Below, piece by piece: positions 1 through 24,100 of a stretch of DNA of 28,632 nt. This stretch comes from Chrysochromulina tobinii (taxonomy: Eukaryota > Haptophyta > Prymnesiales > Chrysochromulinaceae): assembly GCA_001275005.1 (NCBI GenBank), contig JWZX01001934.1:1-28632 (forward strand), read 5' to 3'. Position 1 is the stretch's first letter, and every line of letters starts with the position of its first letter. The position numbers and the translations under genes were made by a program. The notes below the pieces were generated by a model. That model searched no databases and was not told the DNA's origin. It saw nothing but the letters and a program-made list of their open reading frames with translations.

Positions 1-1511
1 ATCAGGTGCCTCACCTCGCCTTCGGCACGGAGCTCTGATGACCTCTGATTGCCTCTGATGACCTCTGATTGCCTCCCTCATCAGGTGCGCCAAGCGGCGT
101 CTTGGATCTCTCTCTCGACCGGCGGCTTGGGCGCGCTCTGCATCGTCACGCTCGTCGCGGCGATGCGCGAGCCGCCTCCGGCCGTGGATGCCTCGGGGGA
201 GCCCGGGACGGCGCCCGAGCGTCATGTGCTGCGCCTCATGAGCACCGTGTGGCAACGGCCGCTCGCGCGCCGGATGAGCCTCATTTGGTGCCTTGCCGAC
301 GGCAGGTGCGCGCGCGCCGAGTGGCGAGTGACTGCCTCTGATGACCTCTGATTGCCTCCCTCATTTGGTGCCTTGCCGACGGCAGCCGCGCAGTCTTTTC
401 AACGGTCGGGCCGTACGCGCTGCAGTACACGCTGGGCCTGCCCGCACCGCTCGTACCCCCGCTGATCCTCGTCTACATTCTCTGCAGTGCGGCCTCGCTG
501 CCCATCTGGCTCGGCCTATCTGATGACCTCTGATTGCCTCGGATGACCTCTGATTGCCTCACTCATCAGGTGCGGCCTCGCTGCCCATCTGGCTCGGCCT
601 ATCTGATGACCTCTGATTGCCTCGGATGACCTCTGATTGCCTCACTCATCAGGTGCGGCCTCGCTGCCCATCTGGCTCGGCCTCGCGCGCCGCCTGGGCA
701 AGGTGCCCGCGTGGCGTGTGGCGCTCGTGTGCAACTCGCTCTGCTTCGTGCCGCCACTAGTGACGCTCCATCCAAGGTTCATCCAACTGCCCGCATACAC
801 GGTGCATGCTGATTGCCTCTGATTACCTCCCTCATCAAGATCATCCAACTGCCCGCATACACGGTGCATGCTGATTGCCTCTGATGACCTCTGATGACCT
901 CTGATTGCCTCCCTCATCAGGTGGAAGCAGCAGGCGGCGATGATCGTCCACGATTGCTATCTGATGACCTATGGTTGCCTCCGATGACATATGATTGCCT
1001 CCTTCATCAGGTGCGCCTGCCGTTTGGCGCCCTCTTCGCGGGTTTCGTGGGTGCATGCGGCGGCGCGACCTCGGCGCTGGGCTACTCGCTCATGGGCGAC
1101 GTGGTCGACGCCGACGCGGCCACAAGCGGCGCGAGCCAAGCGGGCGTCTTCTTCGCCTTCTGGGCCTTCGTCTCCAAAATGGCCGGTGGGGTGGTTTCGA
1201 TTGGCACCGGCTTTGCGCTGCAGCTCGGCGGGTTCGTCCCAAATCAGGAGCAGTCGCTCGCGTCGCGCGTGACGATCGGGCTGCTGCTCATGGTGCCCGA
1301 GATTCTGGGCCTCGGGCTCGCCGCGGCGACCACGCTCAGCTTCGAGCTCGACGAGTCGGCCTCCGAGCGCGTGCGCGCCACTCTGGTGGGCCGGCGCGTA
1401 GAGAGTGCACGAAAGGCGGTGCTCGGTGAGTCGGGGGGCAAGGGGGGCGGGGCCAAGCACGGGAAGCTGCGCCATGGCACTGGCGGCGCCACGAATCCTG
1501 ACTTGCTTTGA
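1..1511 (+). CDS. MFS_2 / MelB-like (GPH family) transporter, 3' part, multi-exon
   Basis: Membrane sugar/cation symporter-type carrier; the start lies outside the window. Exons that keep one frame are 85-305, 386-486, 653-776, probably 921-960, and 1011-1511 (stop TGA 1509-1511). The spliced protein has several hydrophobic helices. One segment reads YALQYTLGLPAPLVPPLILV, followed by SLPIWLGLARRLGK, and the last exon carries MGDVVDADAATSGASQAGVF, matching the family's late D-V-V-D motif before a helix. Positions 6-35 would encode PHLAFGTEL, like the family's PxxALGAEL motif. They have no GT donor after them, so I take them as an intron-borne copy of an upstream exon. Exon 921-960 fits phase on both sides but is followed by CTGATG, not GT, so that junction is unsolved. 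Substrate cannot be inferred. Confidence 0.78.
306..385 (+). other. Intron flanked by 26-bp exon duplication
   Basis: An 80-bp GT..AG intron. The 26 bp at 280-305 (exon end, ...GACGGCAG) recur exactly at 360-385, so donor and acceptor both follow the same exonic sequence. Between them lie a GC-rich piece and the 10-bp repeat units (TGATGACCTC, TGATTGCCTC). Unlike most introns here, the acceptor is the duplicated exon sequence and the donor belongs to the inserted piece. Splicing restores ADG-SRAVFSTVGPYALQ in frame. Confidence 0.8.
487..652 (+). other. Intron made of two tandem 83-bp exon-plus-repeat units
   Basis: Units 487-569 and 570-652 are identical by eye. Each starts with about 31 bp of the downstream exon (GTGCGGCCTCGCTGCCC...), continues with decamer repeats and ends in CTCATCAG. 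The exon resumes at 653 with a third copy of the same 31 bp. Each unit is itself a possible GT..AG intron. Phase is kept (tgc a / gt gcg) whether one or both units are removed together. Confidence 0.8.
777..1010 (+). other. Repeat-rich intron region with a probable 40-bp exon inside
   Basis: Donor AAG/GTTCATCC at 777. A 62-bp unit beginning at 779 is repeated from 841, then decamers end in CTCATCAG at 920. Positions 921-960 can encode a 13-residue exon that fits phase on both sides. A second repeat block runs 961-1010 and ends TTCATCAG. The block at 961 lacks a GT start, so either a non-canonical donor is used or this copy is damaged. Confidence 0.5.
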
Positions 1512-1559
1512 GGGGTCAGTCTTCGAGTTTTAACAGCCTATTCACACCCTCAAAACGAA

Positions 1560-2381
1560 ATGTCCCTGTACCCCCTCTCTGCGCTCGCCGCCATCCTTTC
1601 CGCTGCGTCGCTGGACCTGCTCAAGCCTCGCACCTCGCTAGCCGCGTGGGCGGCTCGCGGCTTGACAAACGGCGAGTCACCGCAAGTGGGCGATCAGGAC
1701 CAGTACATCCACGTGTCCTCGCGGTGGGTGCAGGAGAAATGGGAAGCGCAGGGTCGACCAATGCCTGGTCCGACTATTGTGTTCAATACCTCTTTTGGCG
1801 TGATTGGATTGGGCGGACTCCATGGCGTGCCGGCGAGCGTCGTATTTCCTATCGCGGATGGCGGCCGATCAGCACCCCTGACGACGACCGCCGACGCATT
1901 TACTGCCGTGTTACCACTGCTCTTGGGCGGGCCTGCGATGCTGGCAAACTCCTACTACTCGAGCTTTCAGCATTCCGAGCTAGAGGCCTGTAGAAAGTCC
2001 TTCAATGTTACCACCGTCACAGGCGACGGCTGGATGAGCCCGCTATTACCTATCAAGCCCTTTGACGATGCTGTTCGTGGTTCATACACGCCGATTGCCA
2101 CCCTCCGCAGCAGCGATCACCGCACGTTCGACGTGGACGCCGCCCTGTGCACATCTACGGCAGATGTGATCAAGGTGGACTTGGCGGCGCAGGCGAGTGA
2201 GGGTCCGAATGTTGAGGACAGCAGCTCGTGTTGCGGCTACTACAACCCTGCGCAAGGCAATGTGCTCACTCCCGTGGTGTCGCCTTACCCATGCCGCTCG
2301 CTCCTCTTTGACGGCGAGCTTTACGGCTTCAATTACCCGCGTCTCGACTTTGTGTTTGAGTGCGACTCGACGCTTCCCTAG
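1560..2381 (+). CDS. Unrecognised protein, 273 aa, possibly secreted
   Basis: Complete open frame with ATG at 1560, only 48 bp after the transporter stop, and no introns. The N-terminus (MSLYPLSALAAILSAASLDL) is hydrophobic and could be a signal peptide or anchor. The rest is mixed globular-looking sequence with a Cys pair near the middle (SSSCCGYYN) and a C-terminal FVFECDSTLP. Composition is less GC-rich than the neighbouring genes and it lacks their low-complexity tracts. I do not recognise the family. The short spacing from the upstream gene suggests compact gene packing and not an operon. Confidence 0.6.
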   Translation: MSLYPLSALAAILSAASLDLLKPRTSLAAWAARGLTNGESPQVGDQDQYIHVSSRWVQEKWEAQGRPMPGPTIVFNTSFGVIGLGGLHGVPASVVFPIADGGRSAPLTTTADAFTAVLPLLLGGPAMLANSYYSSFQHSELEACRKSFNVTTVTGDGWMSPLLPIKPFDDAVRGSYTPIATLRSSDHRTFDVDAALCTSTADVIKVDLAAQASEGPNVEDSSSCCGYYNPAQGNVLTPVVSPYPCRSLLFDGELYGFNYPRLDFVFECDSTLP

Positions 2382-2758
2382 CGCGGCAAACAAAGCCGCG
2401 CAGGCTCAGATGCTCGGGCGCGAGGGCAAGGACGCTCGGCGGCTGACGCCCAGCGGCCTGCGCCGGTAAAGTAGCTCCATGAATAGCTCGTCCGGTTACC
2501 GGTTTAACGGCCCTGCTCGGTTCGATCACTCCTCTCTTGACAGTACTCTGAGGGACCGTTACACTCCGGCGCCAATGGGCCGTTACACTCGTCAAGTACT
2601 GTGAGGACCGTTACACTCACACAGTACTTGACGAGTACAAACAGAGCGCTCCGCACACGCGCGCGCCGCGCTACTGAGTACTGACTATAGTACTTTACTT
2701 ATATACGGCTCTCGGTTGTAGTGGACCCTTGTCGCTGCTTGTCGCGCGGCCTCGCTGA
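2382..2758. other. Intergenic, AGTACT-rich
   Basis: No gene seen. The stretch holds three copies of CCGTTACACTC or close variants (about 2558, 2580 and 2608), several AGTACT or CAAGTACT motifs, and the inverted repeat listed separately. It is more AT-rich than the genes. It could hold the terminator of the upstream gene, or regulatory sites. Confidence 0.4.
2588..2635. repeat. Perfect 16-bp inverted repeat
   Basis: CTCGTCAAGTACTGTG at 2588-2603 is the exact reverse complement of CACAGTACTTGACGAG at 2620-2635, with a 16-nt spacer containing CCGTTACACTC. As RNA it would form a strong stem-loop. It could be a 3'-end signal, a paired protein-binding site or a remnant of a foldback element. Confidence 0.75.
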
Positions 2759-3003
2759 GTCGTCATAGGCACATGCCGACCCATCTCTGCTGTCTACGCT
2801 GTCTTGGCTATCCCCCTCCCATGCGGAGCAGCCGCCTTAGGATGACGCAGCGCTGTCCACCTCCGACAGCGCCGCGCTGTATCGAGCGCTCTTCACAGCG
2901 CTGTCTAAGCCCTGATCGGAGCCGGGAGGTGTGAGCGAGATCGTCTCGAGCATTAACAGGAGGTGCTCATGTGCCTCCGCCGACTCGGAGGAAGCGCCCG
3001 TCC
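2759..3003 (-). pseudogene. Internally deleted copy of the 3' end of the large minus-strand gene
   Basis: 2759-2899 matches 4469-4594 and 2909-3001 matches 5682-5775 with scattered substitutions. About 1.1 kb between the two blocks is missing. In translation, segments such as ASSESAEAHEHLL and SARYSAALSEV of the parent C-terminus are fused directly. The upstream edge stops at a GACGGGCGC motif and joins an inverted intron-type repeat (3007-3025). No promoter or start is visible, so it is a dead fragment. Confidence 0.8.
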
Positions 3004-3006
3004 CTT

Positions 3007-3025
3007 TGATTGCCTCCCTCATCAG
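3007..3025 (+). repeat. Intron-type repeat tail in antisense orientation
   Basis: TGATTGCCTCCCTCATCAG, the conserved 3' end of the introns in this window, lies here on the plus strand between two minus-strand features. It is the only copy I saw that opposes its neighbours. It supplies the TGA that ends the leucine-rich repeat frame at 3022. Confidence 0.7.
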
Positions 3026-4188
3026 GTGCATGGGGTCTTCATGCCAGCGGCCTCTGTGTGATAGCTGCAGTGAGAGCGACAGAGACGGAGCCTCTGAGTG
3101 ATAGCTGCAGTGAGAGCGACAGAGACGGAGAGAGCGACGACACAGGAAATGGCGGACGGAGCAGCGGCAGCAGCGAGAGAAGCGAGAACGAGAGCGATAG
3201 AAGCAGCGAGAGAGAGTGCGATGGAGAGCAAGTCCACTGAGTCGTCAATACAAACGCACAACAAAAGAGATAGCGGTCGCCAGGCTCTGCGCCTCAAGAA
3301 GGAGCTCAGCAGCACCCTCAGCGCGAGGGAGGAGCACCCGCGGAAGGCGCTATCGCCGATGCTCGTGAGGGACGCGGGCAGCTCCCTCAGCGCGAGGGAA
3401 GAGCACCCGTCGAAGGCGCAATCGCCGATGCTCGTGAGGGACGCGGGCAGCTCCCTCAGCGCGAGGGAGGAGCACCCGTAGAAGGCGCAACTGCCGATGC
3501 AAGTGAGGGACGCGGGCAGCTCCCTCAGCGCGAGGGAGGAGCAACCATCGAAGGCGTGAGCGCCTATGCTCGTGAGGGACGCGGGCAGCTCCCTCAGCGC
3601 GAGGGAGGAGCACCCGTCGAAGGCGTAAACGTCGATGCTCGTGAGGGACGCGGGCAGCTCGCTCAACGCGAGGGAGGAGCACCCGTAGAAGGCGCCAAAG
3701 CCGATGCTCGTGAGGGACGCGGGCAGCTCCCTCAGCGCGAGGGAGGAGCACTCGCGGAAGGTGTAAGCGCCGATGCTCGTGAGGGACGCGGGCAGCTCTC
3801 CCAGCGCGAGGGAGGAGCACCCCTGGAAGGCCAAACGGTCGATGCTCGTGAGGGACGCGGGCAGCTCCCTCAGCGCGAGGGAGGAGCACCCGTAGAAGGC
3901 GCGAAAGCCGATGCTCGTGAGGGACGCGGGCAGCTCCCCCAGTGCGAGCGAGTGGAAGCCTTCAAACGCGCGATCGCCGATGCGCGTCAAGCTCGCCGGC
4001 AGCGCCACCGAGCGTAGGTCCCGCCGCCCACGAAAGTACTCTGCCTCGAGCGTCGTGACGCCCTCCGGGACGACGGCATGGTACACCCCAGCACCCTGCG
4101 TCGGCCGCTGCCGCTCCGCCCTGCGCACCTCGTAGGAGCTTAGCAGCTCCCCCAGCGCCGCCATTGCCGCGGGCACGGCCTCCAGCAT
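3022..4188 (-). CDS. BspA-type leucine-rich repeat (LRR_5) protein, 388 aa
   Basis: ATG at 4188. After about 60 N-terminal residues come ten tandem 23-residue repeats of the form LPASLTSIGxxAFxGCSSLA (69 bp each, about 3300-4000), the signature of BspA-like LRR_5 solenoids. These usually act in protein-protein contact or adhesion. Repeats differ mainly at 3-4 positions after SIG/SID, the solvent-exposed sites. After the last repeat the frame continues into a hydrophobic Ala/Leu/Ser tail, possibly a membrane segment, and stops inside the antisense intron-type repeat. The true C-terminus may therefore have been lost. A 40-bp duplication (about 3051-3130) lies in the tail. The plus-strand frames here are shadows. 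Confidence 0.82.
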   Translation of the reverse strand: MLEAVPAAMAALGELLSSYEVRRAERQRPTQGAGVYHAVVPEGVTTLEAEYFRGRRDLRSVALPASLTRIGDRAFEGFHSLALGELPASLTSIGFRAFYGCSSLALRELPASLTSIDRLAFQGCSSLALGELPASLTSIGAYTFRECSSLALRELPASLTSIGFGAFYGCSSLALSELPASLTSIDVYAFDGCSSLALRELPASLTSIGAHAFDGCSSLALRELPASLTCIGSCAFYGCSSLALRELPASLTSIGDCAFDGCSSLALRELPASLTSIGDSAFRGCSSLALRVLLSSFLRRRAWRPLSLLLCVCIDDSVDLLSIALSLAASIALVLASLAAAAAPSAISCVVALSVSVALTAAITQRLRLCRSHCSYHTEAAGMKTPCT

Positions 4189-4471: not shown

Positions 4472-7400
4472 TCATAGACACCCCCGTCTTACGCTGTCTT
4501 GGCTATCCCATGCGGAGCAGCCGCCTTCGGATGACGCAGCGCTGCCCACCTCCGACAGCGCCGCGCTGTACCGAGCGCTCGTCACAGCGCTGCCCAGCTC
4601 GGACCGGGCGATGGCCGCCTCCTCCGCCTCCTCCGCCGCGAGGTGTCGACGCGCCACGATCCCGGCGAGCTCGATGGCATAGCTGATCGCCAGGCCCGAC
4701 GCGGCCGCCTCCGAGGGCTCTAGGCGCGGTGCTCGCCATGGCGCGTCATTCACACCGCTGCCGCTCACTCCCGCACCGCCGTTCACACCGCTGCCGCTCA
4801 CTCCCGCACCGCCGGGCGTTAGGGGAGGGCGCGTGTCCGTCATCTCGCCAAGTCGGGGAATGCCCCGCGGCCGTTGGATGGCGTGGCTCCCAAACGGGTG
4901 GCTGTGCGCGCCGCCGACACGCCCGAGAGAGACGGAGGACGAGACGGAGGAATACGTCGAGAGCACAGAGATCTCGCCGGAGGAGACCTCGCCGGAGGAG
5001 CGCGCGGTAGAGCCGCCGGAGCGCGCGCTGTGCCGAGCGCTCAACGGACCGGTATCGAGGTGGCGGCAGCCCCGCTGGCTGCTCGGCACGGCGCTCCGCT
5101 GCCGACTGCCGCCGCTGCCGCTGCCGCTGCCCATGTCACCGGCCCACGGGTCGTACGCTTCCAAATTAGGGTCGTACTCAGCCTCTTTCCAGGGGTCGGG
5201 CTCACTCGAGGCACGGCTGGAGGCACGCCTCCCCTCTGAAGACCTCGAGAGCGCATGGAGCGGTAGAAAGAGCTCCTTGGAGTGCGTCGTGCTGGGCACT
5301 CGCGTCGTGGTGGGCACTTGGAGCGGTAGAAAGAGCTCCTTGGAGTGCGTCGTGCTGGGCACTCGCGTCGTGGTGGGCACTTGGAGCGGTAGAAAGAGCT
5401 CCTTGGAGGAGCGCAGCGAGCGAGCTCCTCTGGCGGCGAACCCTTCGGATTGCGAGAGTAATTGAGAAAGGCTCCATTGCTCATCATCGCCGCCTTCGCA
5501 TGACCTGCCCTCGCCGTATCCGCCCTCGCTGCAGCCCTCGCCGCCGTCGTCCTCAGTGCCGCCGCTACCCTCTCCGTGCCGGTACCCGGCGCTGTATGAG
5601 GCGCTGTGTCGGCGCATAGCGGCCTCGCTCAACGCATCGTTCGCGTCTGAGAACCGGTCCTCCAAGAAACCTCCATCTGAGCCCTCATCGGAGCCGGGAG
5701 GTGTGAGCGAGATCGTCTCGAGCCATAACAGGAGGTGCTCGTGTGCCTCTGCCGATTCGGAGGAAGCGCCCGTCACGGCGCCGCTCGCGGGGGTCGTGCC
5801 GAACAAGGCCGCGGCCAGGGCGTTCGCGACCGCTTTGGAGGGCACGACGGGCGCCGAGTAGGCATGTGATGGCGCCGCCGCAGTGGTTGCCATCGCAGTG
5901 GTTGCCATTGCAGGGGCTTCAAATGCAAGGGTTCCGATTGCGCGTGTCGCTAATGCAGGTGCCTTCACAAGCGCTGTGCCAGGCGCCATCGCTGCCCCAG
6001 GCGCCAGCGCTGCCCACCCGAGCTCACCCTCCGCCTCCGCCTCCGCCACAGCCAGCGCCATCAGGCTCGTAATCGTACGTCGATCATTCTCACCTGATGA
6101 GGGAGGCAATCAGAGGTCATCAGAGGCAATTAGAGGTCATCAGGCTCGTAATCGTACGTCGATCATTCTTACTGGCTTCTAGTGCCGCCGCTGTCGGAGC
6201 CGTAGCCGACGCTGCCATCGCTGCTGCTGCTGCTGCTGCTGCTGCTGTCGGCGCCCGAGACGGCGCGTCGAGAGCCGTCGTGGGCGCCTGTGACGGCGCC
6301 GCCAGAGCAGTCGCCGGCGCCCGTGACGGCGCCGCCCTTTGAGCTGCGCTCGTCGGCGCCGCTGTCGGCGCCGATGGTGACGCAGTGGCCCCCGGCGAGC
6401 GCCGAGATGAGCGCCTCCCTCCAGCCTTACCGGTAGCCTTACCGTCCTCCGAAGGCTGTGCACGCGTCGCCGCGAGCGCACGAGCAGCTGCCTGCGTCGC
6501 CGATGGTGCTTGAGATGGTACCAGTGCATGTGCGACTGCAGGTGCCGCTGCTGGTGCCGCCGTGTGGACCTTCGCTGATGAGAGAGGCAATCCCACCTTG
6601 GGCCGCGCCGGCTCGTGATGACTCTCGTGATGACCCTCGTCATCGAGCTCCTCAGGCTCGTGATGACCCTCGTCATCGAGCTCCTCAGGCTCGTGATGAC
6701 CCTCGAGTGCCTCGTGCTGCGAACCTCCACGTGCATTGCCCCTTTGCAGCTGCTCCGACGCCTCCATCGCCGCGGCTCGCACGCTCACCTGATGAGGGAG
6801 GCAATTAGAGGTCATCAAAGGCAATCAGAGGTCATCAGAGGCAATTAGAGGTCATCAAAGGCAATTCGAGGTCATCAGCGCTCACCGTAAGTTCGTGATG
6901 AGGTGGGTCGCCATCGTCGCTCTCGCCATCGCTGGCGCTGCCGTCGGCAGCCGTGTGCGCCGACGATGATCTCCCTGATCTCCCTGATCTCCCTGATCTC
7001 CCTGATCTCCCTGATCTGCCGGCTGCTGGGGCGCCGTGTGGGGAGGTTGAGACGTCCTCCATGGCACGCCCACCTGATGAGGGAGGCAATCAGAGGTCAT
7101 AAGAGGCAATCAGAGGTCATAAGAGGCAATCAGAGGCAATCAGAGGTTGAGACGTCCTCCATGGCACGCCCACCATGACGCCCATCAGTGGCCGTACCGG
7201 AGCGCGCTCGTGCAGACCCAACGGCGCCCACCACGGCGCTCCGCAATAGGCGAGCGGTGCCCAAGACGGCGCTGCGTGACGGAGGGCGGCGCACGAGTTG
7301 CATCGCCTGCGCATACGGCGATGGCCAGGCTGGCGACGTGTGCGAGGTCGCGGCGGAGGGCCTGTACGGCGATGAACGCGTGCCAGGCGCGACCTTTGAC

Positions 7401-10400
7401 GCGGGGCCAGAGGCGGGGGCGGAGGCGTCAAGGGGAGAAGACGCACTGGAGTGCGTCGTGCTGGGCACTCGCGTCGTGGTGTGCACTGGCGTCGTGGTGG
7501 GCACTGGCGTCGCTGCGGCCTCCAGAGCGTTGATTGCCATCGACATCTGAAACGGGTGGTTACATCGGGCGGAGCTCATGCCGCTGCCCCCAGCGCCATG
7601 GGCGCTCGCTTTCGGACTGGCCGTTGGGGAAGATGGGCGGGGAGATGCCATCTCCCCGGGGGAGACGGCCGGGGGGATGGGCGGGGGGATGCCGGGGAGA
7701 TGCTGGCGCCGACTTGGGCAGCGGGATCGCCGTCGCTACAGCCAAGGCTGCGGCGCCCGTCGTACCGACGGCGAGCAGCGCCCTCGCCGCGTCCTCGAGC
7801 GATGATCTCCCTGATCTCCCTGACCTCGCCGCGTCCTCGAGCGATGATCTCCCTGATCTCCCTGACCTCGCCGCGTCCTCGAGCGATGATCTCCCTGATC
7901 TCCCTGATCTCCCTGACCACGCCGCGTCCTCGAGCGGTGAGCTGGTAGCTGGGCATAAGCTCGCCCCGGCCACGTCACCTCCAGCGCCACGGCCACCGGC
8001 GCCGTCCTGAGCGCCACTGCCGGCGGCGCCGTCCTGAGCGCCACTGCCGGCGGCGGCGGCGGCGGCGGTGCCGCCGCCCTCTCGGACGGTGAGCGCCGCG
8101 AGGAGCCGATCGAGGTCGGTGTGGCGTGAATAGTCGATATGCATGCGCTTGAAGTCACGCATGGCGCGCACGTCGACGAGCCGGTAGTCGACAGAGTGCG
8201 CACTGGCCCTGCGATGACGGCGGCCTGACAAGGACTGCTGCTGCTGCTGCTGCTGCTGGGCGAGCTTGGCGGTATTGACTGAGCGGGGGCCGAGGTCGGG
8301 GCGGGTGGGCGTGAGGGGGCGGCCCGGGGTGTCGGGTCGTGACGAGCGATGCGAGTGCCCTGCCCCCCCAGGGGTGGTAGGCGCCGTGCTGGGCACTTGT
8401 GAGTCGCCGCCGCCACGTCCATTCTGTAACTTGTCCACATTAGGCAATGGGGTCGATGTGAGCGCGGGAACGGTGCTCGACCGCTTGTTCACGGCGGAGG
8501 CAGCGCGGGCTCCTTTGGCGCCGTGGTGGGCTCCTTTGGCGCTGTGGTGGGCTCCTTTGGTGCGCTTCGCAGCCGCAGCGGCCGCAGCGGCCGCAGCGGC
8601 AGTCGCGGCCGCCGTCGCGGCGGCCGCCGCCGTCACCGCGGCTGCTCCTTCCTTTGACGAACCCATCTTGCCTAATTTGGCTGGCGAGGAAGGCATCGAG
8701 GAAGGAGGCAGTCCGCCAGCGCTCGGTACAGCGCTCTGCGCTCGAGGTGCGGTTGGCACACCCGCCGGGGGCGCTGTGGTGGGCGTGGGCTTTGCCGCAG
8801 GTGTCGACGCTGTGGGCGCCGTGGTGGGCGCCAGAGGGGCCTCCTCCGCCTCCGCCTCCTCCTCCTCCTCCTCCTCCTCCTCCTTCTCCTCCTCCTGACC
8901 CGCGATTGCAGGATGGCGCTCTCTTGAGAGCTCACCAAGGCGCTCTTTTGAGACCCTCTTGTCCTCGCAATCAATCTCCGCAGCAATCTCCGCCCCGAGA
9001 GGGCCCTCGGCGCGGCGGGGTGCCGGCGCCGTGCCGGGCGTCCACACGAGGGCAAACGTAACGGTGGCCCCACTCCCACTCCCCACAAGGGGATGGCGCT
9101 CGTAATCTATCCGCGTCTCGTCATTCAAATTCCCCACAAGGGGATGGCGCTCGTAATCTATCCGCGTCTCGTCATTCCCATTCCCCACAAGGGGATGGCG
9201 CTCGTAATCTATCCGCGTCTCGTCCGCCCACTGTCCGAGAGGGCGCCGTGGCGAGCACTCGCATGCGTCCGCCAACTGTCCGAGAGGGCGCCGTGGCGAG
9301 CACTCGCATGCGTCCGCCAACTGTCCGAGAGGGCGCCGTGGCGAGCACTCGCATGCGTCCGCCAACTGTCCGAGAGGGACCACGAGCTCGCCCAGGGGCT
9401 TGTCCTGCGCGAAGTGATTACGATCCCATACTTGGATCGTGAGTGCGAGAGGGGCGAGCTCTCGCAGCGATTCGATGGGCCATGAGGCCGATTCATTCCA
9501 TCGAGGGTTCAGTTGCCAAGGGACCACGGACGATCGCCACTCCTCCTGCCCAGGCAGCTTGAGGACCACGTACGGGTCGCTCGTGTTGGTTAAGTCGACG
9601 GCTTCGAGGCCGTCCGCGCCCTCGAGCTCCACAGCAAAGAGGCCGGGTTGCTCAACACGGCGCCCGACCTCGCGGTGGCGAGATTCCTCGACGAAGCGAT
9701 CGACGAAGGCTTCAAGACGGGCGGGTAGTAGCTGCGGCTTGGGCAGCTCCGCCAGCTTGGCAAGGGCACTCAGACGTGCCTGCTCGGCCTGCTTGGCCGC
9801 CCTGGCGGCCAGCTGGGCGGCCTCGGCGGCCTCCTTGGCGGCCATCAGGGCGGCCTCGGCGGCCTGCTTAGCGCTCTCCTCAGCCAGTCGCCGCTCCTCC
9901 TCCATCAGCGCCAGCCTCTCATACGCACCGTCTGTCATGCTCGTCTTGGTGGTCGGCACGGGCTGGTCCCGCGAGCCGACGGGTGCCCATCGATTCGGTC
10001 GCCGATCGCGCCAATAGGCGGGCCGCCGCAACTCTTCCAAGAGCTGATGACGCTTGCGGAAGTCGCCTGTGGACACTCCGTCCGTGAGGGCGTGCATGCC
10101 ATTGGTGCTCAGGACGGCGCCTCGCTCAGGAGCGCTCGTGCGGCGGCGGCGAGGGCGAGGCGCCGTCCTGGGCGGCCTGGAGGCCCTGCTGGAGGCCCCG
10201 AGGGTGCTAGGCCCGCCTTCCTCGTCCCCCTGCGAACCGGAGTCCTCGTCGACGTCCTCGTCGGCCTCGTCCTCCTCCTCGTCCTCTTCATCGTCCTCCG
10301 TGGCCGCTGCTCGCGACAGCGCCGTCATGGATGCTGTCGCCTTCCCCTTGGGCGCAGCCTTCCCTTGCGCGGCCTTGGGCACACTGGGCGCCGTCTTGGG

Positions 10401-13400
10401 CACATTGGGCGCCGTCTTGGGCGCAGCAGGCCTACCGGACGGTTGCAAAGGGGGGCGTGCATCCGGCACGGCTGCATCCGGCATGGCAACATTCGATGGC
10501 ATCTTCCCTGGCACCGCGCCCAGGACAGCGCTCGATGGCATCTTCCCTGGCACCTCTGCTGCCAGCGCCACGGCCACCGGCGCCGTCCTGAGCGCCACGG
10601 CCACCGGCGGCTCGCGCCGAACGCTTTCGAGTGGATGCGCGTAGCCCGTGCCACCTCGGCTAGTAGCAGCTTCAGAGGCGCCGTCCACACGATCTCCGCT
10701 CGGAGATCGAGAGCCCTCACGATCTGAGAGCGGAGATCGAGAGCTGCTCGTGCCGACGCCGACGCCGCCGCCGCGCCCAGGACAGCGCCCAGCGGCTGAG
10801 GAGGCCTTGCGGGCAGCGCCCAGGACAGCGCCCCCACTCCCGCCAGAGGGCGCTGCGGACTTGGCGGCGGCGGCTGTCATGTTGGGCGCCGTGTTGGGCG
10901 CTGCGGACTTGGCGGCAGCGGCTGTCTTGGCAGGCGCATGAGTGGCCGCCGCGCCGGCCGCCCCCCCTGGCCTCCTTGCCGCCGCGCCCAGGACAGCACC
11001 CGTCGCGCCCAGGACAGCGCCCGCCGCCGCGCCCGCCGCCGCGCCCGCCGCCGCGCGTGCACGTACGGGTGCGGCGGCGTCGGCCGCGAGCGGCAGCTGC
11101 GAGGCGATGCTGGCGCCGCCCTTCGCGCCGCCGCTGGCCATCGCCCTCCCAGATGAGTCGCTGATGAGCTCCGCGTAGCTCCGGTGAGCTCCGAACGGAT
11201 GGGGCGCCGTGTTGGGCGCGCCGCCCGCCGGTCCGGCTGCGCCCAACACGGCGCCCAACGCGGCGCCCACGCCCGCCGCGACGCTCGGCCGACCCGACGG
11301 CTGCCGAGAGCCCGCGCGCGAGCCAGGCGCCGAGTTGGGCGTCGCGCCAGGCGCCGAGTTGGGCGTCGAGCCGAGCCGCGAGCTCGGGCGAGATCCGGGT
11401 GACGAACCCGGGGGCGACTTGGTGCGCGCGCCGAGTTGGGCGCCGCCGCGTCGCCGCTGCTCGCTGCGCAGCGCGTGCGTCATCTCATCGACTCGACGCT
11501 GCTCGAGCACGCGCGACTCCTCCGCGTCGACGTGGGCGATGATCTGCCTCGCCTCCGTCCCCACCTCGACGAGCCGTGCACACCTGATGAGGGAGGCAAT
11601 CAGCATGCACACCTGATGAGGGAGGCAATCAGCATGCACGCCTGATGAGGGAGGCAATCAGCATGCACGCCTGATGAGGGAGGCAATCATCCTCGAGGAC
11701 CTGTGGGAAGACTGCGCCGTGCGCACCTTGACTGCGCCAGTGCGAGCTGGGCCTCGAGGGCGCCGTAGCGAGCACTTGCATGCTGGGCCTCGAGGGCGCC
11801 GTAGCGAGCACTTGCATGCTGGGCCTCGTGGGCGGAGTGGTCGGCTGGGGGGTGAGCCGGCTGGGGGGTGAGCCGGCGCATCGCGCGTGCCAGCTGGAGC
11901 TCCACTCGTACGTCGGGTGGCGCCGTGGTGAGCGCTTGCATGCTGGGGAGCTCCACTCGTACGTCGGGTGGCGCCGTGGTGAGCGCTTGCATGCTGGGGA
12001 GCTCCAATCGTACGTCGGGTGCATGCGCCAGTGGCCGCGGCGGCGTGCCGGCCGGCGGCTCGGCAGCGAGGCCCAGCATACAAGTGCTCGTTACGGCGCC
12101 AGCGGAGACGTCGCACACAGCCTGCGCGATCGTCGCCGCTTCGCCCAGCAGAGCGAGCTGCGCATGCGCTTCGTCAATTTCTTCATCGCCCAGCAGAGCG
12201 AGCTGCGCATGCGCTTCGTCAATTTCGTCATCGCCCAGCAGAGCGAGCCGCGCATGCGCTTCGTCAATTTCGTCATCGCCCAGCAGAGCGAGCTGCGCAT
12301 GCGCTTCGTCAATGAACATCTGAAGCTCAGCGAGCTCATTGCTCGCCTGCTCTAATGAGGCGGCAGCGAGCGCCCGCACAGCCGCACGCGCGGCCGCCGC
12401 CTCGGCCGCCGCCGCCTCGGCAGCTTGTCGCGCTGCGCGCTCATCGGCAGCTCGGGCCTCGAGCTCGGAGAAGCTCACGTACCTGTGGGGAGGGGAGGGC
12501 GCCGTGGTGAGCACTTGCATGCAAGTCTAGGCAGCGTCCACTCGGCACGTACCTGTGGGGAGGTGAGGGCGCCGTGGTGAGCGCTTGCATGCTGGTCTAG
12601 GCAGCCCTCAGGCAGCGCGTACTCGAGCGCCGCCAGCTCGTGCAGGTAGCTCTCGTACCCATCATAGCCGAGCGTGTGCGCGAGCGCTCGAGGTGAGAGG
12701 CACCGCGGCATCCCACCTGATGAGGGAGGCAATCAGCATGCACACATGATGAGGGAGGCAATCAGCATGCACGCCTGATGAGGGAGGCAATCAGCATGCA
12801 CTCATGATGAGGGAGGCAATCAGCATGCACGCCTGATGAGGGATGCAATCAGCATGCACTCAAGGGCACCGCGGCATCCCACCTGCACACCGCCGCCGCC
12901 GAGGCGCTCAATCGGCGCCGTGCCGAGCGCGCCTCGTTGGAGAGATCGGCGATGAGGTCGGCGTTGGCATTTGAGGCGAGGCGCGTCGTGATGGGCATTT
13001 GCATGCTTGTGCTGATGCGCGACCGGTCGCCCTCCTCAGACGGGTGCACCGCATCAGACGGGTGCAGCGCATCAGACGGGTGCAGCGCATCAGACGGGTG
13101 CACCGCGGCGCCCAGTGCGGCGCTGCTCGCGGTGGGCTGCCCAGTACGGCGCGGGCTGGAGCGGCGGGAGGAGCGCGGTGTTGAGCGGCGGGTGGAGGCC
13201 GCGTCCGTCGCGCCCGCCACGGCGCGGGCGTCCTGACCCTGGAGCGAGGCGAGGCGCCCTCGCGCGCTGTCCTTTTCGACTGTGAATGGGGAGCCGCGCG
13301 CGCTGCGAAGGAATGGGCTGCTGTTAGACGCACCGCCATCCTTGTCGACTGTGGCCGGCTCGGAGCCTGTCGCGTCTGCTCGCCTGGGGGTGCGCGCGCT

Positions 13401-13956: not shown

Positions 13957-15013
13957 TCAAATCTCCTCCTCAAAGTATGCTGCGCGCTCGAGCCCCGCCC
14001 CCTCCGCAGTCCCGCCCCTCGTGAGGCTTGCGAGCGTCATGGCGAGCGTGGGCGCGTCGGCCGCGTCGGCCGCGTCGAGGCCCTTGCCACGCTGGTAGTC
14101 TTCCTGGTGCTGTTCGTGGGCATTGCGACTCGCTTCAGGAGCCGTTGCCGCGGCCGTTGAGAGCCCTTGAGAGCCGTTGAGAGCCGTTGCCGCGGCCGGC
14201 TGCGCGGCCGGTTGCGCGGCAGCCGCCTCCATCTCGTCGTCCTCGTCGTCCTCGTCCCCTTCATCGGTTTCGTCCTCGGCCGAGCGCTGGATAGGCACGC
14301 CGCCGTAACCTTTCTTTCGCGCCGTCCTGGGCGGTCTGTAGCAGCCTTTCCGCCAGGAAAGCACGCTGACTGCAAGAGTAAGCAGCCACCTGATGAGGGA
14401 GGCAATCAGAGGTCAGCAGGGCGAGCAGCCACCTGATGAGGGAGGCAATCAGAGGTCATCAGGGCGAGCAGCCACCTGTGATGAGGGAGGCAATCAGAGG
14501 TCATCAGGGCGAGCAGCCACCTGATGAGGGAGGAAATCAGAGGCCATCAGGGCGAGCAGCCACCCTGTCATTTACCCCGTCAAGCCAGCAGACACTACTC
14601 CCACATTTCCAAGCATCGCCGTAATCATCGCCCGTGATGTCACCCGTGATGAGGGGGATGAGGGGGATGAGGGGGAGCGCAGCGGCGGCGGCGAGGGCGG
14701 CGGCGCGGGTGGCATGGATGGCGGAGGAAGCGGCGGGTGCGGCGGGTGCGGCGGCGGCGGTGCGGGCGCGGGAGACTGTGGCGGTTGTGACGGCGGAGGC
14801 GGTTGCAGGGGTGATGGCGGACACTGCGGCGGCGGGTTGGTCGGCGGCCGCACCGGTGGCACCGGCGGTGGCGAGGGGGACGGTATGAAATGGTTGAGGC
14901 AACTCGGGCCGAGCACTGCGAGAGAGAACGGGAGGCAATCAGCATGCACGACTGATGAGGGAGGCAATCAGCATGCACGACTGATGAGGGAGGCAATCAG
15001 CATGCCGAGCACT
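13957..15013 (-). CDS. Pro-rich single-pass membrane protein with acidic tail
   Basis: Exons 14915-14576 and 14389-13957, with a possible first coding base at 15013. Splicing 14575/14390 keeps phase and fuses ITAMLGNVGVVSAGLTG to WLLTLAVSVLSW, making one continuous transmembrane helix. Before it is a Pro-rich segment (PSPSPPPVPP ... PPPPSQPPQS), probably outside the cell; after it a basic stop-transfer (RKGCYRPPRTARKK) and a cytoplasmic Glu/Asp- and Ala-rich tail ending YFEEEI. The start is uncertain: the 15012-14916 splice would form an ATG across the junction, giving 257 residues in exact frame. There is no clear signal peptide. Likely a cell-surface protein of unknown partner. Confidence 0.68.
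14390..14575 (-). other. Intron of four tandem GTGGCTGCTCGCC...CATCAG units
   Basis: Donor GTAAATGA at 14575, acceptor CATCAG at 14390. Four 43-46-bp units each start with GTGGCTGCTCGCCCTG, a 16-bp relative of the next exon's GTGGCTGCTTACTCTTG, and end in CTCATCAG (one in CATCACAG). Each unit alone has GT and AG ends. The exon after it supplies the second half of a membrane helix, which supports the splice. Confidence 0.85.
14916..15012 (-). other. Intron flanked by about 25-bp duplication, near gene start
   Basis: CCCGTTCTCTCTC then AGTGCTCGG is found on both sides, with GC inserted in the acceptor copy to make CGCAG. Two TGATTGCC...CATCAG units and a partial third lie between. Donor A/GTGCTCGG, acceptor GCAG/TGCTCGG. 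Confidence 0.6.
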
Positions 15014-15102
15014 GAGAGAGAACGGGAGTTGCGCGCGCACGCGAAAGTCAGACGCGTGCTGTAATGGGCGCGGTCAGACGCGAGCACACACGAGCCAGTG
15101 CG

Positions 15103-15258: not shown

Positions 15259-15285
15259 GCGGCAATCACGGGTCGTAGGTTCGAT

Positions 15286-16475
15286 CTAGGTTCGATAGCC
15301 GTCCCGGCGCGTACTGCCCAAGACCACCGCCTGAGCCGATGCTTCCGTGCCGTCGCCCATCTTGCGCACGAACCAAAAGCCCTCGGCACGCGCGCGTTCA
15401 CAGATGGTCCGCGCGCTCGAGGCGGTGATGAAACTCGAAGGGCTCGTCCCTGCCTCGTGTGTGCTGGCGTCTACCTGCGTGCCGCCCAGCCACTCGCAGT
15501 ACCTGATGAGGGAGGCAATCAGCATGCACACCCGATGAGGGAGGCAGTCAGCATGCCGGCCACTCGCAGGACCTGATGAGGGAGGCAATCAGCATGCGAG
15601 CCACTCGCAGGTTACCAGCACACGTAGGTGGGGCCTTTGTCTTGGATCGGATAGCCGCGGGAACGGAGCTCAAATGGGATGATGATCTCGTCGGGCGCGG
15701 ACTCTGTGGATATCCATCGCTCGCCGCCTGTGGGGAGGAATGGCGCCGTGCTGAGCGGTTGCATGCCAGGCGGGAGGATCACAGACTGAGAGGGCGGCCA
15801 TCGCTCACCTGTCGGCGGCAGGTCGATCGAGTGGCCTTTGTTGCGGATGCGTGGCTGCCAGAGCTGCTCGAGCCTCTGCTCCTCCGCCGCGACAGCCTGC
15901 GCCGCCTCTAGCCACAGAGCCGTCCACTGGCTCTTCTCGTACTTCTCGCCGAACTGCGGCTGGATGCGGTTGACGCCGGGTTGGGCCGCGAGACCCGCGT
16001 GCACTGCCTGGCACGACTGCACCGGCGCGCAGTGCTCGGAGAGCGTGATGACCCAGCGCGGCGTGCAGCCATTGGGGGCGATTGTCGAGGCGGCGCCGCG
16101 ATAGAGGCGCAGCATGATGGCCACCATAGTCCACGAGAAGCGTGGCGACCCGGCGGTAAGGGTCAGCTCGCGGGAAAGCACGACCCCGTTGTACGCGTGC
16201 GATCTCGCCTTGAGAGACGCGTGCGAAGAGATGTCTTGTGCGTGGACGATGGGCACCGCGCGCCCTCCGCACCCATCAAAGTACTGCTGCCAGAGCGGCC
16301 AAAGCGGCAAAGCGCCGCGGGTGATGAACGCGTAGCTCACCGTGTGCACGGCCTCATTCGCGGAGCACGAGCGCGAATCTCTGACGGGGATGAGATCTAG
16401 CGCACGCGGAAGAGATGGAGGAAGAGGAAGAGGCACGGTAGAAGCCATCGGGAGTAGGCACGGCCAAAGCGACAT
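15286..16475 (-). CDS. GT14 / DUF266-like (core-2/I-branching type) glycosyltransferase
   Basis: ATG at 16475, stop at 15286-15288. Exons 16475-15809, 15727-15616 and 15502-15286 total 996 nt, 331 residues. Family marks in order: VSYAFITRGALPLWPLWQQY (strand-1 block), WVITLSEHCAPVQS (matching the family L-L-S-E-x-C-I-P-L), a Lys-Ser-Gln-Trp segment, SAPDEIIIPFEL (matching PDEHYxPT), GPTYVCW near the second intron, and FWFVRKM (matching FLFARKF). The usual His after PDE is replaced by Ile, and the N-terminus lacks an obvious membrane anchor, so activity is uncertain. Expected role: transfer of a sugar onto a glycan in the secretory path. Confidence 0.72.
15503..15615 (-). other. Intron with copies of exon sequence CTGCGAGTGGC
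   Basis: Donor CTG/GTAACCTGCGAG at 15615, acceptor CATCAG/GTACTGCGAG at 15503. The exon's CTGCGAGTGGC occurs twice inside the intron and once in the exon after it, separated by TGATTGCC...CATCAG tails. The splice removes a TAA and restores TYVCW-YCEWLGG. Confidence 0.85.
15728..15808 (-). other. Candidate 81-bp intron of the second family
   Basis: Donor GACAG/GTGAGCGATGG, acceptor CCTCCCCACAG/GCGGCGAGCGATGG. GAGCGATGG is duplicated at both edges, with a GCATGCAACCGCTC ... CACGGCGCC copy inside. Removal gives LPPTGGERWISTES. The length is divisible by three and lacks a stop, so it could instead be retained as 27 extra residues. Confidence 0.6.
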
Positions 16476-19240: not shown

Positions 19241-19288
19241 TTGGTCGAGGCACTTTAAGCGGAGACGCCCATACGTGGGACACCGTGA

Positions 19289-20500: not shown

Positions 20501-20528
20501 GACCTTACTTCATGCGCCCTGGCCGAGG

Positions 20529-20776: not shown

Positions 20777-21107
20777 CGCCTCCCGAGGCGCTGGTTGTTT
20801 TGTGCTTGTGCGACAGGTACATGAGGCCGGCGCGGATGCACCCTGCGTCTGTATTAATATTGCGTCTACAATTAACCCACCAAGTACACTTAGCATCTGT
20901 GCACACTTGATCCTCTGTTCTTGGTGTTGCTGCGATGGGTTTGGTGGGTTAATTCAAGTCACCTACACGCGGGCAGTATTTTGCCGCACCCACCACAAAA
21001 TCCCCCTTCCCCCCCCTTCCCCCCCTCTTGCATGCTGCTTACTAGGATTCTTCACACTGCCGAACTGGAACCTCCCAGTGTCTCGCAAAGGTTGTGAAGG
21101 TGACCGC
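20777..21107 (+). promoter_or_regulatory. 5' region of chromodomain gene with perfect inverted repeat
   Basis: AATTAACCCACCAA at 20870-20883 is the exact reverse complement of TTGGTGGGTTAATT at 20941-20954 (spacer 57 nt). A C-rich tract (CCCCTTCCCCCCC) follows near 21004. An open frame runs through this stretch into the gene, but its composition is non-coding, so I start the protein at 21108. Confidence 0.5.
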
Positions 21108-24100
21108 ATGTCTCGACCGAAGCGAAGCGCAGCGCCCGACTTCGCGGCGATGGCTGCCAAGGAGGAGCTCGTGGACAAGGCCATCGCGCGTATAGCACGT
21201 GCTCCCACCGCGGAGGAGCTCGAAAGGAAGCGCCTTGCACAGGAGGCGGCGGAGGTCCGGCGCGCAGAGCGACGTGCGGCCGCCGAGGCGGCCGCTGCGG
21301 CCGCCGCGGCTGCTGCGCCCGCGCCGGAGGAGGAGGAGGAGGCGTCCGAGTCGGACGGCGCCAAGTACAAGATCGAGCGGCTGCTCACGTGTCATGCCCT
21401 CTCCGCGCGCGCCAAGTTTATGCTGGTAAAGTGGGACGAGTGGGACCTTGACCTGCACACGTGGGAGGCGAAGAAGCACATGCACAAGGATGCGATCGAG
21501 GACTTTGAGCGCACCGCGAAGCTGCCCTTTGTGCTCTCCGAGCTGCTCGAGCTGCCGCCGCATGCATCGGCTGCGCTGCTGGAACGCGAGCACCTCCTGC
21601 CGGTGCAACCGCCGCGGGAGGACGACGACGAGGACGACAACGATGAGGACGATGAGGACGAAGAGGTGGTGGAGGAGGGCGCGGGCGGCGGCGGCGTGGA
21701 CGGTCCGGCAGCAGCCATCAAGCTCGAGCAGGGGCAGGCGGCGCGTACTGCTGGCTCGGCTGCCAGCACAGGTGCTGCGGCTACGGCGGTCCTCGAGGGA
21801 GCGACAGCGGTGGCTGCCGAGAGCGAGAGCGAGGATGAGAGACCAATCCCAGTGAGGACGCTCAACACGGCGCTTATCCCAGCGAGGGCGGCGGAAGCAC
21901 TGATGACGACAACGGCGGTGGCTGGCACCACCATCACGACCACCAACTCCTCCGCCACCGCCGCGGCCGCCGCAGCGCCTCATGCGCCGGACGCCTCCGT
22001 TCCCCACAAGTCGCGACGACGCCGGCCGGCCCTCGATCGCAAGCTAGCCGAGCCGCCGCCGCCCTTCACGTCGGCGGTGCGCGACGGGCTGCTCGACGCG
22101 CTCAACACGGCGCTCCGAGAGACGACGCGCGCGTCGCCGGCGCTCCACACGGCGCTCGTCGCGGAGAGCGCGGCGGGGAGCTTGCAGGCGGCCGCGCTGG
22201 CGCTTCGGGCGGAGTTGAATCTGCCCCTCTACTCCATCCTCCAAGCTTGCATTGCCACGCCGGCGCTGCCGGCGGCCGGCGCCGTGCTGAGCGCCGTGCC
22301 GGCAGCGGCGTCGCACTCTGCCTTCGTCGGGCTGGGCTGCGGGCGAGAGGACCGGCGGGTGCGCATCGTGCTGCCGCCGCTGCCCCGAACTGACGGAACT
22401 GACGGAACTGACGGAGCTGACGGGACTGGCGGTGGAGGCGCCGCGTCGAGCGCTGGCGCCCTCGTGATCGAGCTGGAATTGCCGCGAAAGGCGAACATTG
22501 AGTACGACTCTGAGGAGGAGGAAGAGGAGACTGGCGGCGCGGCGCGCGCTGCGGGAAATGGTGGTGGAGCTGCCAAGTTGGAGGAGCTCCCGCCCGCCGC
22601 CTCTTTCACAGCCTCCTTCACAGCCAAGGTGGAGGAACTCCCGCCCGCCGCCTCCACGTCCACCGCTCTACCCGCCAGCAGCACCACCTCCACCGTCTCT
22701 TCCGCCGCCTCCTCCTCCGCCCCGCCGGTCAGCTCGTCTCTCTCGTCGGAGCGTAACGTCATGACCCATGATATCATCGCGAGCGTGCGTGAGGCAATGC
22801 GTGAGGCTATACGTGAGGCATTGCGTGAGGCGGTCTCGGCCTTCGATCGCGGCGTCACAACACGGCTGCGCGGTTGTGACCTCGCGCTCGGAGGTGGCCT
22901 CAGCTTGCCGAACCTGGGCGGCGCTGCACGCCCACCCGAGTTCTATGTGGCGGCTCCCAAATTAGGCAACTCTACGGCGCCAGCTGGCGCTGTCATGGGC
23001 GCCGCTGGGCTGGGCTTGGCGGCGGCAGTCAAGGAGCTTGTGCTGCTTCTGCTCGCGGACCGTAACATGATCGTCGAGCCCACCAATGGCTTCCGAATGG
23101 CCATGTGCCTACCGCACGCGCTCTCGGCCAGACCGTTGTGGCCTCGGCGATGGGAAGCGACGAGTGCACCGGCGGCCGGGCGCGGCGGCAGCGCGGCGGG
23201 CGGGGCGGCCGGTGGGATGGCCCGGCGCGCGCGCGGCGCAGCGACGAGCTATGCGGAGGTCGATGAGGACGCCCAGGACGACGCGGAGGCTGAAGGCGGC
23301 GAGGGCTCGTCGTTCATCCCGTTTGGATCGGTGGTGGCGGCGAGTGGCACGTCTGTGCGCGCGATCGTCGGGTGTGCCTCTGATAGCGTTTGACGGCGTG
23401 TGATGTCCTTTGAGGGGGTTTGATGGCATCTGATGGCGTCTGATGGCGTGTGATGGCGTGTGATGGCATGTGATGGCCTTTGAGGGGGTTTGATGGCGTC
23501 TGATGGCGTCAGATGGCGTCTGATGGCGTCTGATGGCGTCTGATGGCGTCTGATGGCGTCTGATGGCCTTTGAGGGGGTTTGATGGCGTTTGAGTTTGAG
23601 GGCGTGCCTCGCTGTGGAACGCTCTGATGGCCTCTGATTGCGTTCGATGGCGTCTCATGGCGTGTGATGGCGACTTATGGCGACTGATGGCGACTGATGG
23701 CCTCTGATTGCGTTCGATGGCGTCTCATGGCAGGTGTGCCGCCGGGCTCGCTGTGGAATTGCCGCTGTGGGGAGTCCATTTGCGCGGCGATCAGCCGTGG
23801 GCCATCCGTGCGCTGCGCGTGAGACACCCGGTGGTCTTGCGGGAAGGTGAGCGATGACACCTGATGACAATTGATGGCACCTGATGACACCTGATGACAC
23901 CTGATGACACCCGATGACACCCGATGATAGCCGGCGGTCTTGCGGGAAGATGAGCGAGTGCTCGTACTGATGGCGCCTGATGGCGCCTGATGGCGCCTGA
24001 TGACACCTGATGACACCTGATGACACCTGATGGCGTCTGAGTGCCGCTGAATTCCTTGGAGTGGCTCTGTCCTCAGGTGAGCGGGCACTCGTGCAAGCGT

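Follow-up and report, generated by a model that had tools for sequence, protein, structure and literature searches.

The bulk origin of introns is a long-standing question, and the large-scale cases have mostly been ascribed to transposons.

For earlier Introner families, the accessible text of Gozashti et al. 2022 (PMC9860276) cites repeats of 3-9 bp, and the screen described there asked for similarity beginning no more than 10 intronic (or 5 exonic) bases from either border, low-complexity families being discarded. Neointrons of Daphnia, attributed to double-strand-break repair, carry exon direct repeats of 4-12 bp at their ends, together with filler and internal repeats, the filler forming no recurring family in the available portion of that work (PMC4202315). 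Rogers and Bendich 2025 (PMC11782384), in the sections available, report that all 213 introns examined have direct repeats at their borders or close to them (4-30 bp, mean 11.4), picked by eye at ≥70% similarity across many intron classes, and read them as traces of insertion. In the tandem genomic duplication model (AGGT), the duplicated exon segment gives the GT, and the same review, in its accessible part, names reverse-transcription template switching as a proposed model (PMC3443670). Small tandem duplications of tens of bases also arise by Pol alpha-primase/CST fill-in or polymerase theta at staggered Cas9 nickase breaks in mammalian cells, theta-mediated joining leaving more microhomology, and the accessible account describes no intron capture (PMC8355091).

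The introns of Chrysochromulina tobinii analysed here resemble each of these systems in part. As with Introners (PMC9860276, as accessible), dispersed similar insertions create introns, the mRNA length is mostly unchanged, and splice sites are partly recruited from the duplicated target, but here the duplications measure 13-43 bp, the 5' end is variable, and terminal inverted repeats (TIRs) are absent. Because the first 13-43 intronic bases are locus-specific, such a family would be missed by that screen as its accessible text describes it. The exon repeats, filler and internal repeats recall those of Daphnia, whereas the filler is here repeatedly the 3' end of another intron, with donors that can be named. 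Relative to the introns of Rogers and Bendich, the repeats likewise lie near splice sites, but are longer, often identical (32/72) and set against swapped-flank controls. The duplicated exon segment gives GT, as in the tandem duplication model, but the copies are separated by a templated insert that brings the acceptor; the duplications span tens of bases, like those at nickase breaks, except that intron tails would be captured here; and, as in reverse-transcription template switching, an intron would reach another gene through a template jump. In the largely open-access literature on intron gain and introners, the accessible texts contained no report of this intron family, and introners in this species yielded 0 papers.

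Exon duplications bracketing introns

The window, by which we mean the whole 28,632-nucleotide stretch of contig JWZX01001934.1, had been described in a preliminary description as holding introns bracketed by exon duplications longer than usual target-site duplications (TSDs), with the target usually giving GT and the element CAG, and with staggered-break repair or template switching as the source. The observation is real and genome-wide, the listed pairs being present in the main, and these three interpretive claims are in the main supported. The flanking repeats, whose genome-wide absence was to count against the proposal, bracket 97 of 153 element clusters at a score of at least 9, compared with 2.1% when downstream flanks were swapped (7/13 clusters in the window alone). 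This sample is non-random, as 13 of the 20 stretches of one set were picked by GTAC after CAG and another 20 stretches by a 29-base subfamily word; with the loci so chosen removed, 79 of 119 clusters have the repeat. Sites without an AG end and clusters within 60-80 bases of stretch ends were dropped. Against a repair-copy reading, 56 of the 153 clusters have no score-9 repeat at the CAG border, and in a search for offset copies among them controls reached scores as high as the real loci (best 27.5 vs 29), so that offset cases, including C1853, rest on identity and not on score.

Clean duplications (score at least 12, thus excluding short ones, and with 13 of 85 dropped for element motifs) number 72 and span 13-43 bp with a median of 23, mostly above the 3-9 bp and 4-12 bp of other systems and at lengths that fit staggered-break repair or template switching; the two copies are identical in 32. 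Shorter duplications exist, of 9 bp at 14.4 kb in the window and of 6 bp at C380. GT begins 58 of the 72 (54/68 without GTAC-chosen loci), while it makes up 4.4% of exon-flank dinucleotides. Where copy 1 starts with GT, copy 1 and the insert together would make up an entire intron and leave the mRNA as it was. Exceptions to this layout are mirror arrangements (window 306-385; C1853) and long arrays, and among 16 non-GT/GC cases scoring at least 9, AG precedes the duplication in 10, as at an existing 3' splice site. Duplication length and insert length are negatively correlated (rho -0.61, n=41), which may only reflect age or intron-length limits.

On the plus strand of the window, sequence and an element-end search place the element of an intron near the contig edge (10-bp repeats and CTCATCAG) at 33-84. 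The copies at 280-305 and 360-385 are indeed identical (26/26), but the usual GT-first layout gives way here to its mirror image: GT (306) follows exon copy 1 (280-305, plus strand), and the plus-strand intron 306-385 runs from GTGCGC through an element joined to the target at CCTCAT, not at CTCATCAG, into copy 2 (360-385), within which lies the acceptor CAG. Its spliced frame is open; P0122 has a single copy and P0121 begins within the segment. The intron 487-652 (plus strand) consists of two 83-bp units, each a 31-bp exon copy and a 52-bp element, and is followed by the exon copy 653-683; the triple at 487/570/653 stood up at 31/31 in both comparisons, the frame is open once spliced, and P0121 and P0122 are single-copy. 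Arrays of this kind probably arose by tandem turnover after insertion. A composite plus-strand intron at 802-1010, with three element ends, repeats at 841-863 the last part of the exon (779-801); the exon ends at 801, and the exon order HPRFIQLPAYT|VRLPFG agrees with relatives. Inside it lies a foreign 31-bp segment (921-951, plus strand), identical to part of an uninterrupted exon of G000:C1189 (minus), which by its sequence looks like an empty donor site.

The minus strand holds a 35-bp duplication, found as described at 34/35 bases, in which exon copy 2 (6059-6093) adjoins the intron 6094-6172, made of copy 1 (6138-6172, GT start) and a 44-bp insert ending CTCATCAG. For the segments given as 7043-7074 and 7143-7174, the identity holds (32/32) but the bracketing length is 31 bp, the extra base being a G, at once the last base of the element and the one in front of the target's GT; by pair comparison, exon copy 2 lies at 7043-7073 and the intron at 7074-7173, with copy 1 (7143-7173) and a 69-bp insert (both minus strand). 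The minus-strand feature 12699-12882 comprises the intron 12717-12882, its 18-bp duplication (12699/12865, 18/18) and an internal array of 29-bp units. At 14381-14563 (minus), the "16 bp units" listed earlier turned out to belong to the internal array: the intron 14390-14563 is an array of 43-bp units, with an exon duplication of 9 bp (GTGGCTGCT). Two further minus-strand features are an element array between 25/27-bp copies at 14908-15028, where the sequence places the insert-target joint inside the element end at CTCCC, and, at 15489-15611, an interleaving of the element with the exon segment GCCACTCGCAG, each in several copies, copies that are present at 15.5 kb but match at 15/17 bases and not over 11 bp. 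The same architecture with another 10-bp repeat (GATGACACCT) occupies 23833-24094 (plus strand), with 21-bp copies at 23833-23853 and 23936-23956; the copy reported at 23.93 kb is there, in the corrected reading GGTCTTGCGGGAAG[G/A]TGAGCG. Below the score threshold are, on the minus strand, the intron 6789-6885 (feature 6782-6885; 7-bp duplication GTGAGCG, copy 2 at 6782-6788) and the putative intron 11584-11726 (feature 11573-11726), a 29-bp-unit array with an 11-bp duplication (10/11; score 8.5). Rfam gave no match at gathering score in the window, and a known ncRNA was rejected as the identity of the element; a viral contigs scan gave 0 places.

Coding phase, element ends and donor-recipient pairs

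Coding phase is kept in 28 of 32 testable loci when copy 1 and the insert are removed, and in 11/32 when they are left in; these segments are presumably spliced. Differences between copies fall at codon positions as 15/22/25, as expected if copy 1 is non-coding, and in 79 of 87 cases coding-like flanks lie in sense. An FtsZ gene on C107 has two such introns and splices to one frame; at the first of these it aligns with no segment doubled to solved FtsZ (2 alignments of 52 matches) and to 12 of 13 relatives, the thirteenth ending in the intron. In the window, an MFS_2 gene likewise gives one spliced frame and aligns with no doubled segment where compared. The preliminary description had named relatives already holding both copies as contrary evidence; at the protein level, relatives hold the segments once where tested.

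The element end GATTGCCTCCCTCATCAG has 991 exact occurrences in the genome (489 plus, 502 minus) and 3,936 when as many as 2 mismatches are allowed, its reversed-pattern control giving 0 in both searches; in the window, 31 matches with up to 3 mismatches compare with 0.06 expected. GT follows directly in 666 of the 991 exact cases. The inserts are made of ~10 bp repeats ending CTGATTGCCTCCCTCATCAG, whose CTGAT/CTCAT motifs we take to fit the branch-point consensus, and different exons carry similar inserts between different duplications. Their 3' end is fixed at CATCAG, partly by sampling, since the loci were chosen by an intact 3' end, and their 5' end is variable, with 42 different first hexamers in 47 inserts. 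No TIRs were found in these 47 (2.68 of 12 matches vs 2.68 in the control), both 5'-end and TIR tests being restricted to inserts of 25-170 bases. At the 5' junction, microhomology averages 1.63 vs 0.40 bases (n=31, p=2e-7; inserts of 25-125 bases).

Inserts also contain exon-derived bases of another gene's intron, and the resulting donor-recipient intron pairs are new here. C1912 and C1853 are identical over 49 bp, 8 of them from the exon downstream of the donor intron, and C1912 and C1745 share 44 bp; a 15-mer tag common to the three has four places genome-wide, all in these loci (reversed control, two). From C395 to C19, 72 bp agree at 97%, with a 19-mer tag confined genome-wide to these two loci (control 0); C216 and C380 share 126 bp; and the window intron at 14.4 kb is the apparent donor of a 57-bp stretch at C272, with 9 bp of microhomology. 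A 15-mer of the FtsZ exon also lies within the insert at C107:10962, the word having one third place. The direction of copying is putatively from first- to second-named locus, the one whose exon likewise carries the tag being taken as donor. In blastn comparisons of C395/C19, C1912/C1745, C1912/C1853 and C216/C380, no exon-flank homology was found beyond the shared segment and element copies.

Weighing against a repair copy, donor exon beyond CAG was found in only one recipient, C1853. Of 11,385 locus pairs, 11 have eight downstream bases in common, C1853/C1912 included. Junction-extension counts made on the 72 clean loci draw on non-independent pairs. Similar introns share 1.86 vs 0.89 bases after CAG|GT in 14 pairs (p=0.0012, again with C1853/C1912), and the same comparison on 56 pairs gives p=0.056, so that extra bases common to similar introns are suggestive only.

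A repair-copy model and its competitors

We consider it probable that these are young spliceosomal introns, formed as small tandem duplications with an insert templated by another gene's intron. At an exon lesion, be it a staggered break, paired nicks or a stalled fork, ~13-43 bp would be copied twice, and between the copies the repair polymerase would copy the 3' part of another gene's existing intron, acceptor included. The 5' switch would use microhomology that the donor shares with the end of the target segment, and the 3' switch would fall where CAG|GT marks the border in the donor, GT being what most targets read there too; the intron tail would thus be captured from unspliced sequence by microhomology-guided template switching. 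We infer the lesion and polymerase, a template of DNA and not of pre-mRNA, and the extent to which selection or targeting enriches GT starts; an RNA template would also agree with the mostly-sense orientation and the sharp end at CAG.

Such a template is central to a LINE/SINE-like route, which we regard as unlikely. Target-primed reverse transcription would begin at the 3' AG end of intron RNA, excised and linearised, leaving the fixed 3' end (here CATCAG, partly by sampling), the variable 5' truncation (42 different hexamers in 47 inserts) and the long, variable TSDs that the inserts share with such elements; the sense orientation (79/87) and 26 RVT_1 places in the genome also favour it. Inserts usually stop where such a template RNA would end, but the 8 donor downstream-exon bases past CAG in C1853 would be lacking from an excised intron, and inserts joined within the element end (CCTCAT at 280/360, CTCCC at 14.9 kb) do not start at an RNA 3' end. 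The element end occurs in 0 of 12 reverse-transcriptase loci examined (of 26), where the 3' ends are not delimited, with a single 10-mer in one.

Quite improbable is an origin without intron gain, by ordinary tandem duplication or minisatellite turnover of old introns or by repeat assembly error. Exonic tandem repeats and intron arrays abound in the genome, and TRF lists 102 rows in the window; against this stand similar inserts in different exons between different duplications, donor-recipient pairs on different contigs, a consistent coding phase and relatives without the duplicated segment where tested. Pure tandem duplication was rejected, as an insert lies between the copies. We give slightly less credence still to a non-autonomous DNA transposon, a classic Introner whose TSD would be unusual in its length and variability. 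Thousands of dispersed similar element ends would suit one, and the accessible part of PMC9860276 reports Introners with 4-bp TSDs from a Chrysochromulina MAG; classic Introner transposition was nevertheless rejected for lack of TIRs and of a fixed 5' end, and the duplications vary over 13-43 bp instead of 3-9 bp while exon-derived donor bases travel along. Reverse splicing of intron RNA into mRNA, followed by reverse transcription and recombination, is scarcely credible: copies end at the 3' splice site and lie mostly in sense, but it predicts whole introns and no exon duplication, and was rejected on the frequent duplications, beside which 5' ends vary.

Consequences for intron gain

The repair-copy model combines repair-type duplication with intron copying at up to about four thousand element ends. 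We hold it an even chance that it amounts to a transposon-free intron contagion, in which the 3' end of an unspliced intron and its exon border would be copied under microhomology guidance into a 13-43 bp tandem duplication, each CAG|GT copy would seed the next, and genealogies would be readable from exon-derived tags. Such families would escape any screen that relies on similarity at the two intron borders. Exon-derived tags name single donor-recipient events, which makes it possible to test what serves as template, which rules the junctions follow and in which direction introns spread.

The element and its flanking duplications

The recurring 3′ part of these introns is composed of a run of ~10-bp repeats, such as CTGATTGCCT, CTGATGACCT and CTGAGTGCCT, ending in the terminus CTGATTGCCTCCCTCATCAG with its CAG acceptor. 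The last 18 bases of this element match 31 sites in the window with up to three mismatches (0.06 expected), and across the genome (53.15 Mb in 2,253 contigs, the window being C891) they have 991 exact matches, and 3,936 when up to two mismatches are allowed, the control giving 0. Exact ends are followed by GT in 666 of the 991 cases and by GC[AG] in 83. GC content is 64.7% in the window and 63.3% in the first 149 kb of fetched stretches; the genome report of Chrysochromulina tobin gives, among its summary figures, 59 Mb in 3,472 contigs, an N50 of 24,114 bp, 63.4% GC and an average of one intron per gene (PMC4580454).

Direct comparison of the copies confirmed the exon duplications that the preliminary description had listed as bracketing introns in the window. 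Stretches were then fetched around element ends, which were grouped into clusters with the window's own included, and the bases after CAG were compared with the upstream region at a threshold match score of 9. A direct repeat scoring at least 9 flanks the element in 87 of 133 clusters, compared with 1.9% when downstream flanks are swapped between loci, while scores of at least 20 are reached in 47 of 133 (0.08% with swapped flanks). Adding 20 subfamily clusters gives 97 of 153 (2.1% swapped), and the count is 79 of 119 once the loci selected for GTAC or as subfamily members are left out. Clean duplications, scoring at least 12 without an element motif inside, a cut-off that hides shorter ones, number 72 and span 13–43 bp (median 23, quartiles 20–31). 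Their copies are identical in 32 cases; copy 2 begins with GT in 58 and GC in four, and the base preceding copy 1 is G in 56. The median length of single introns, which consist of copy 1 and the insert, is 80 bases (range 50–162, n = 42).

Other repeats share the window. Stretches at 23379–23731, 23853–23927, 23967–24040 and 24299–24360, built from the 10-bp repeats TCTGATGGCG, GATGACACCT and TCTGAGTGCC, have the element's period and different 3′ ends, and probably represent introns from sister families. Tandem duplications of 36–70 bp at 9221–9378, 11741–12048, 12476–12622 and other sites repeatedly contain a second dispersed motif, resembling GCGCCGTGGTGAGC[A/G]CTTGCATGC, and the similar CCCACCACAGCGCTC is found in inserts of contig C992 and an exon of C380. 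Units of 29 bp (GTGCATGCTGATTGCCTCCCTCATCAG plus 2), apparently copied between two sites ~1 kb apart, are expanded at 11584–11688 and 12717–12864, and about ten 69-bp repeats at 3309–3987 (TRF period 69) resemble, on visual inspection, an array coding for leucine-rich repeats.

Intron reading and probable derived state

Judged by sequence, copy 1 and the element together read as introns. Among the 32 loci where both flanks appear coding, removing copy 1 and the insert keeps the coding phase in 28, compared with 11 when nothing is removed, and coding-like downstream flanks lie in sense orientation in 79 of 87. Mismatches between copies fall 15/22/25 on codon positions 1/2/3 (58 loci), a spread expected if copy 1 is non-coding.

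The FtsZ gene on contig C107 carries two such introns, one a 182-base array and the second with a 21-bp duplication, GTGCC[C/T]CCGGAGGCCGTCGTG; removal of both leaves a single reading frame. The first duplicated segment is single in solved FtsZ (52 sequences matched, two alignments inspected) and in 12 of 13 aligned relatives of 120 listed, the thirteenth, P0037, stopping within the intron; the second falls where the protein's tail is poorly conserved. The best organism-labelled relatives bear labels beginning Prym... and Scyph.... In the window, exons 85–305, 386–486, 653–801 and 1011–1511 join into an MFS_2 transporter. The related protein P0122 has each of the two duplicated segments of this gene once, and P0121 has that of 487–517 once and begins inside the other. 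Since the segments are single in relatives' proteins, the duplication appears derived, as far as these FtsZ and MFS_2 proteins can show.

P0037, found in ENA contigs (51 members), is a nearly identical FtsZ that departs from the reading frame at the intron site of L031, with different sequence beyond, a possible intron polymorphism in the wild. Another relative, P0063, reads through ANIIFGTSVDETCASS twice, perhaps a tandem duplication of exon plus intron start.

Insert ends and probable donors and recipients

The inserts have one fixed end and one free end. Forty-two different first hexamers occur among 47 single inserts, in which a search for terminal inverted repeats found none. At 5′ junctions, the duplicated exon agrees at its end with the bases preceding the same word in other inserts over a mean of 1.63 bases (control 0.40, n = 31, p = 2e-7), and some 3′ junctions fall inside the element end at microhomology (CCTCAT at 360, CTCCC at 14.9 kb).

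Copy 1, lying within the intron, tags its host gene, and several inserts hold the tag of another gene. On contig C1912 the intron contains GTGGGTCTCACTGAG and the exon GTGGGTCTCACCGAG; counting both the T and the C form, this word occurs at four places genome-wide, these two plus C1745 and C1853 (two for the reversed control word), and both recipients carry the intronic T. C1853 and C1912 share 49 identical bases, the last 8 of which (GTGCAACT) are C1912 downstream exon and lie in C1853 within the 10 bases separating CAG from copy 2 of the 22-bp duplication at that locus; an excised intron cannot be their source. From C395 to C19, 72 bp match at 97%, the word GGAACTCGAAAGGATCCGG occurs in these two only, and C19 likewise matches the variant of the donor's intron copies. 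From C216 to C380, 126 bp match at 97.6%, including an exon-derived segment of C216. Blastn of fetched stretches found no exon flanks common to donor and recipient in these three groups.

The window's intron at 14.4 kb, the apparent donor for C272, matches it over 57 bp at 94.7%, and a 9-bp match between donor and target exon, CCCTCATCA, would be the point of entry. C107:10962 holds 15 bases of FtsZ exon, a word at three places genome-wide, the third on C1983. The same pattern fits C76/C127 (94 bp at 87%) and two C214 introns (52 bp at 100%, direction unsure).

Within intron 802–1010, the segment at 921–951 resembled a foreign exon tag, a prediction that was put to the test. Its core, allowing up to two mismatches, has one other genomic place (control 0), on C1189, where the same 31 bases stand single and uninterrupted inside a 220-codon open reading frame. 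An element end lies ~70 bases upstream, and the first dozen codons of the frame cross the element. The source would be either a C1189 allele with an intron at that point or direct capture of exon sequence.

Proposed mechanism and relation to known introns

The preliminary description had suggested staggered-break repair or template switching. The simplest account would be that a short exon segment is duplicated in tandem around a templated insert, the insert being the tail of another intron, copied from either DNA or unspliced RNA, with the return switch made at the CAG|GT border. Among the most similar introns 1.86 bases are shared after CAG|GT, compared with 0.89 for random ones (14 pairs, p = 0.0012; weaker at looser cut-offs), as expected if the switch is made there; a surplus of GT starts could also come from splicing selection alone. 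In mammalian cells, Pol alpha-primase/CST fill-in of ~43–50-base overhangs is described as yielding small tandem duplications, theta-mediated joining showing more microhomology (PMC8355091).

By their published descriptions, Introners and break-repair introns each work partly like the element introns, which would be full members of neither. Direct repeats of 4–30 bp near intron borders are described for many intron classes (PMC11782384), so the repeats as such are not new. In the accounts of intron gain and introners consulted, we found no report of duplications of such length, identity and scale, or of named donors.
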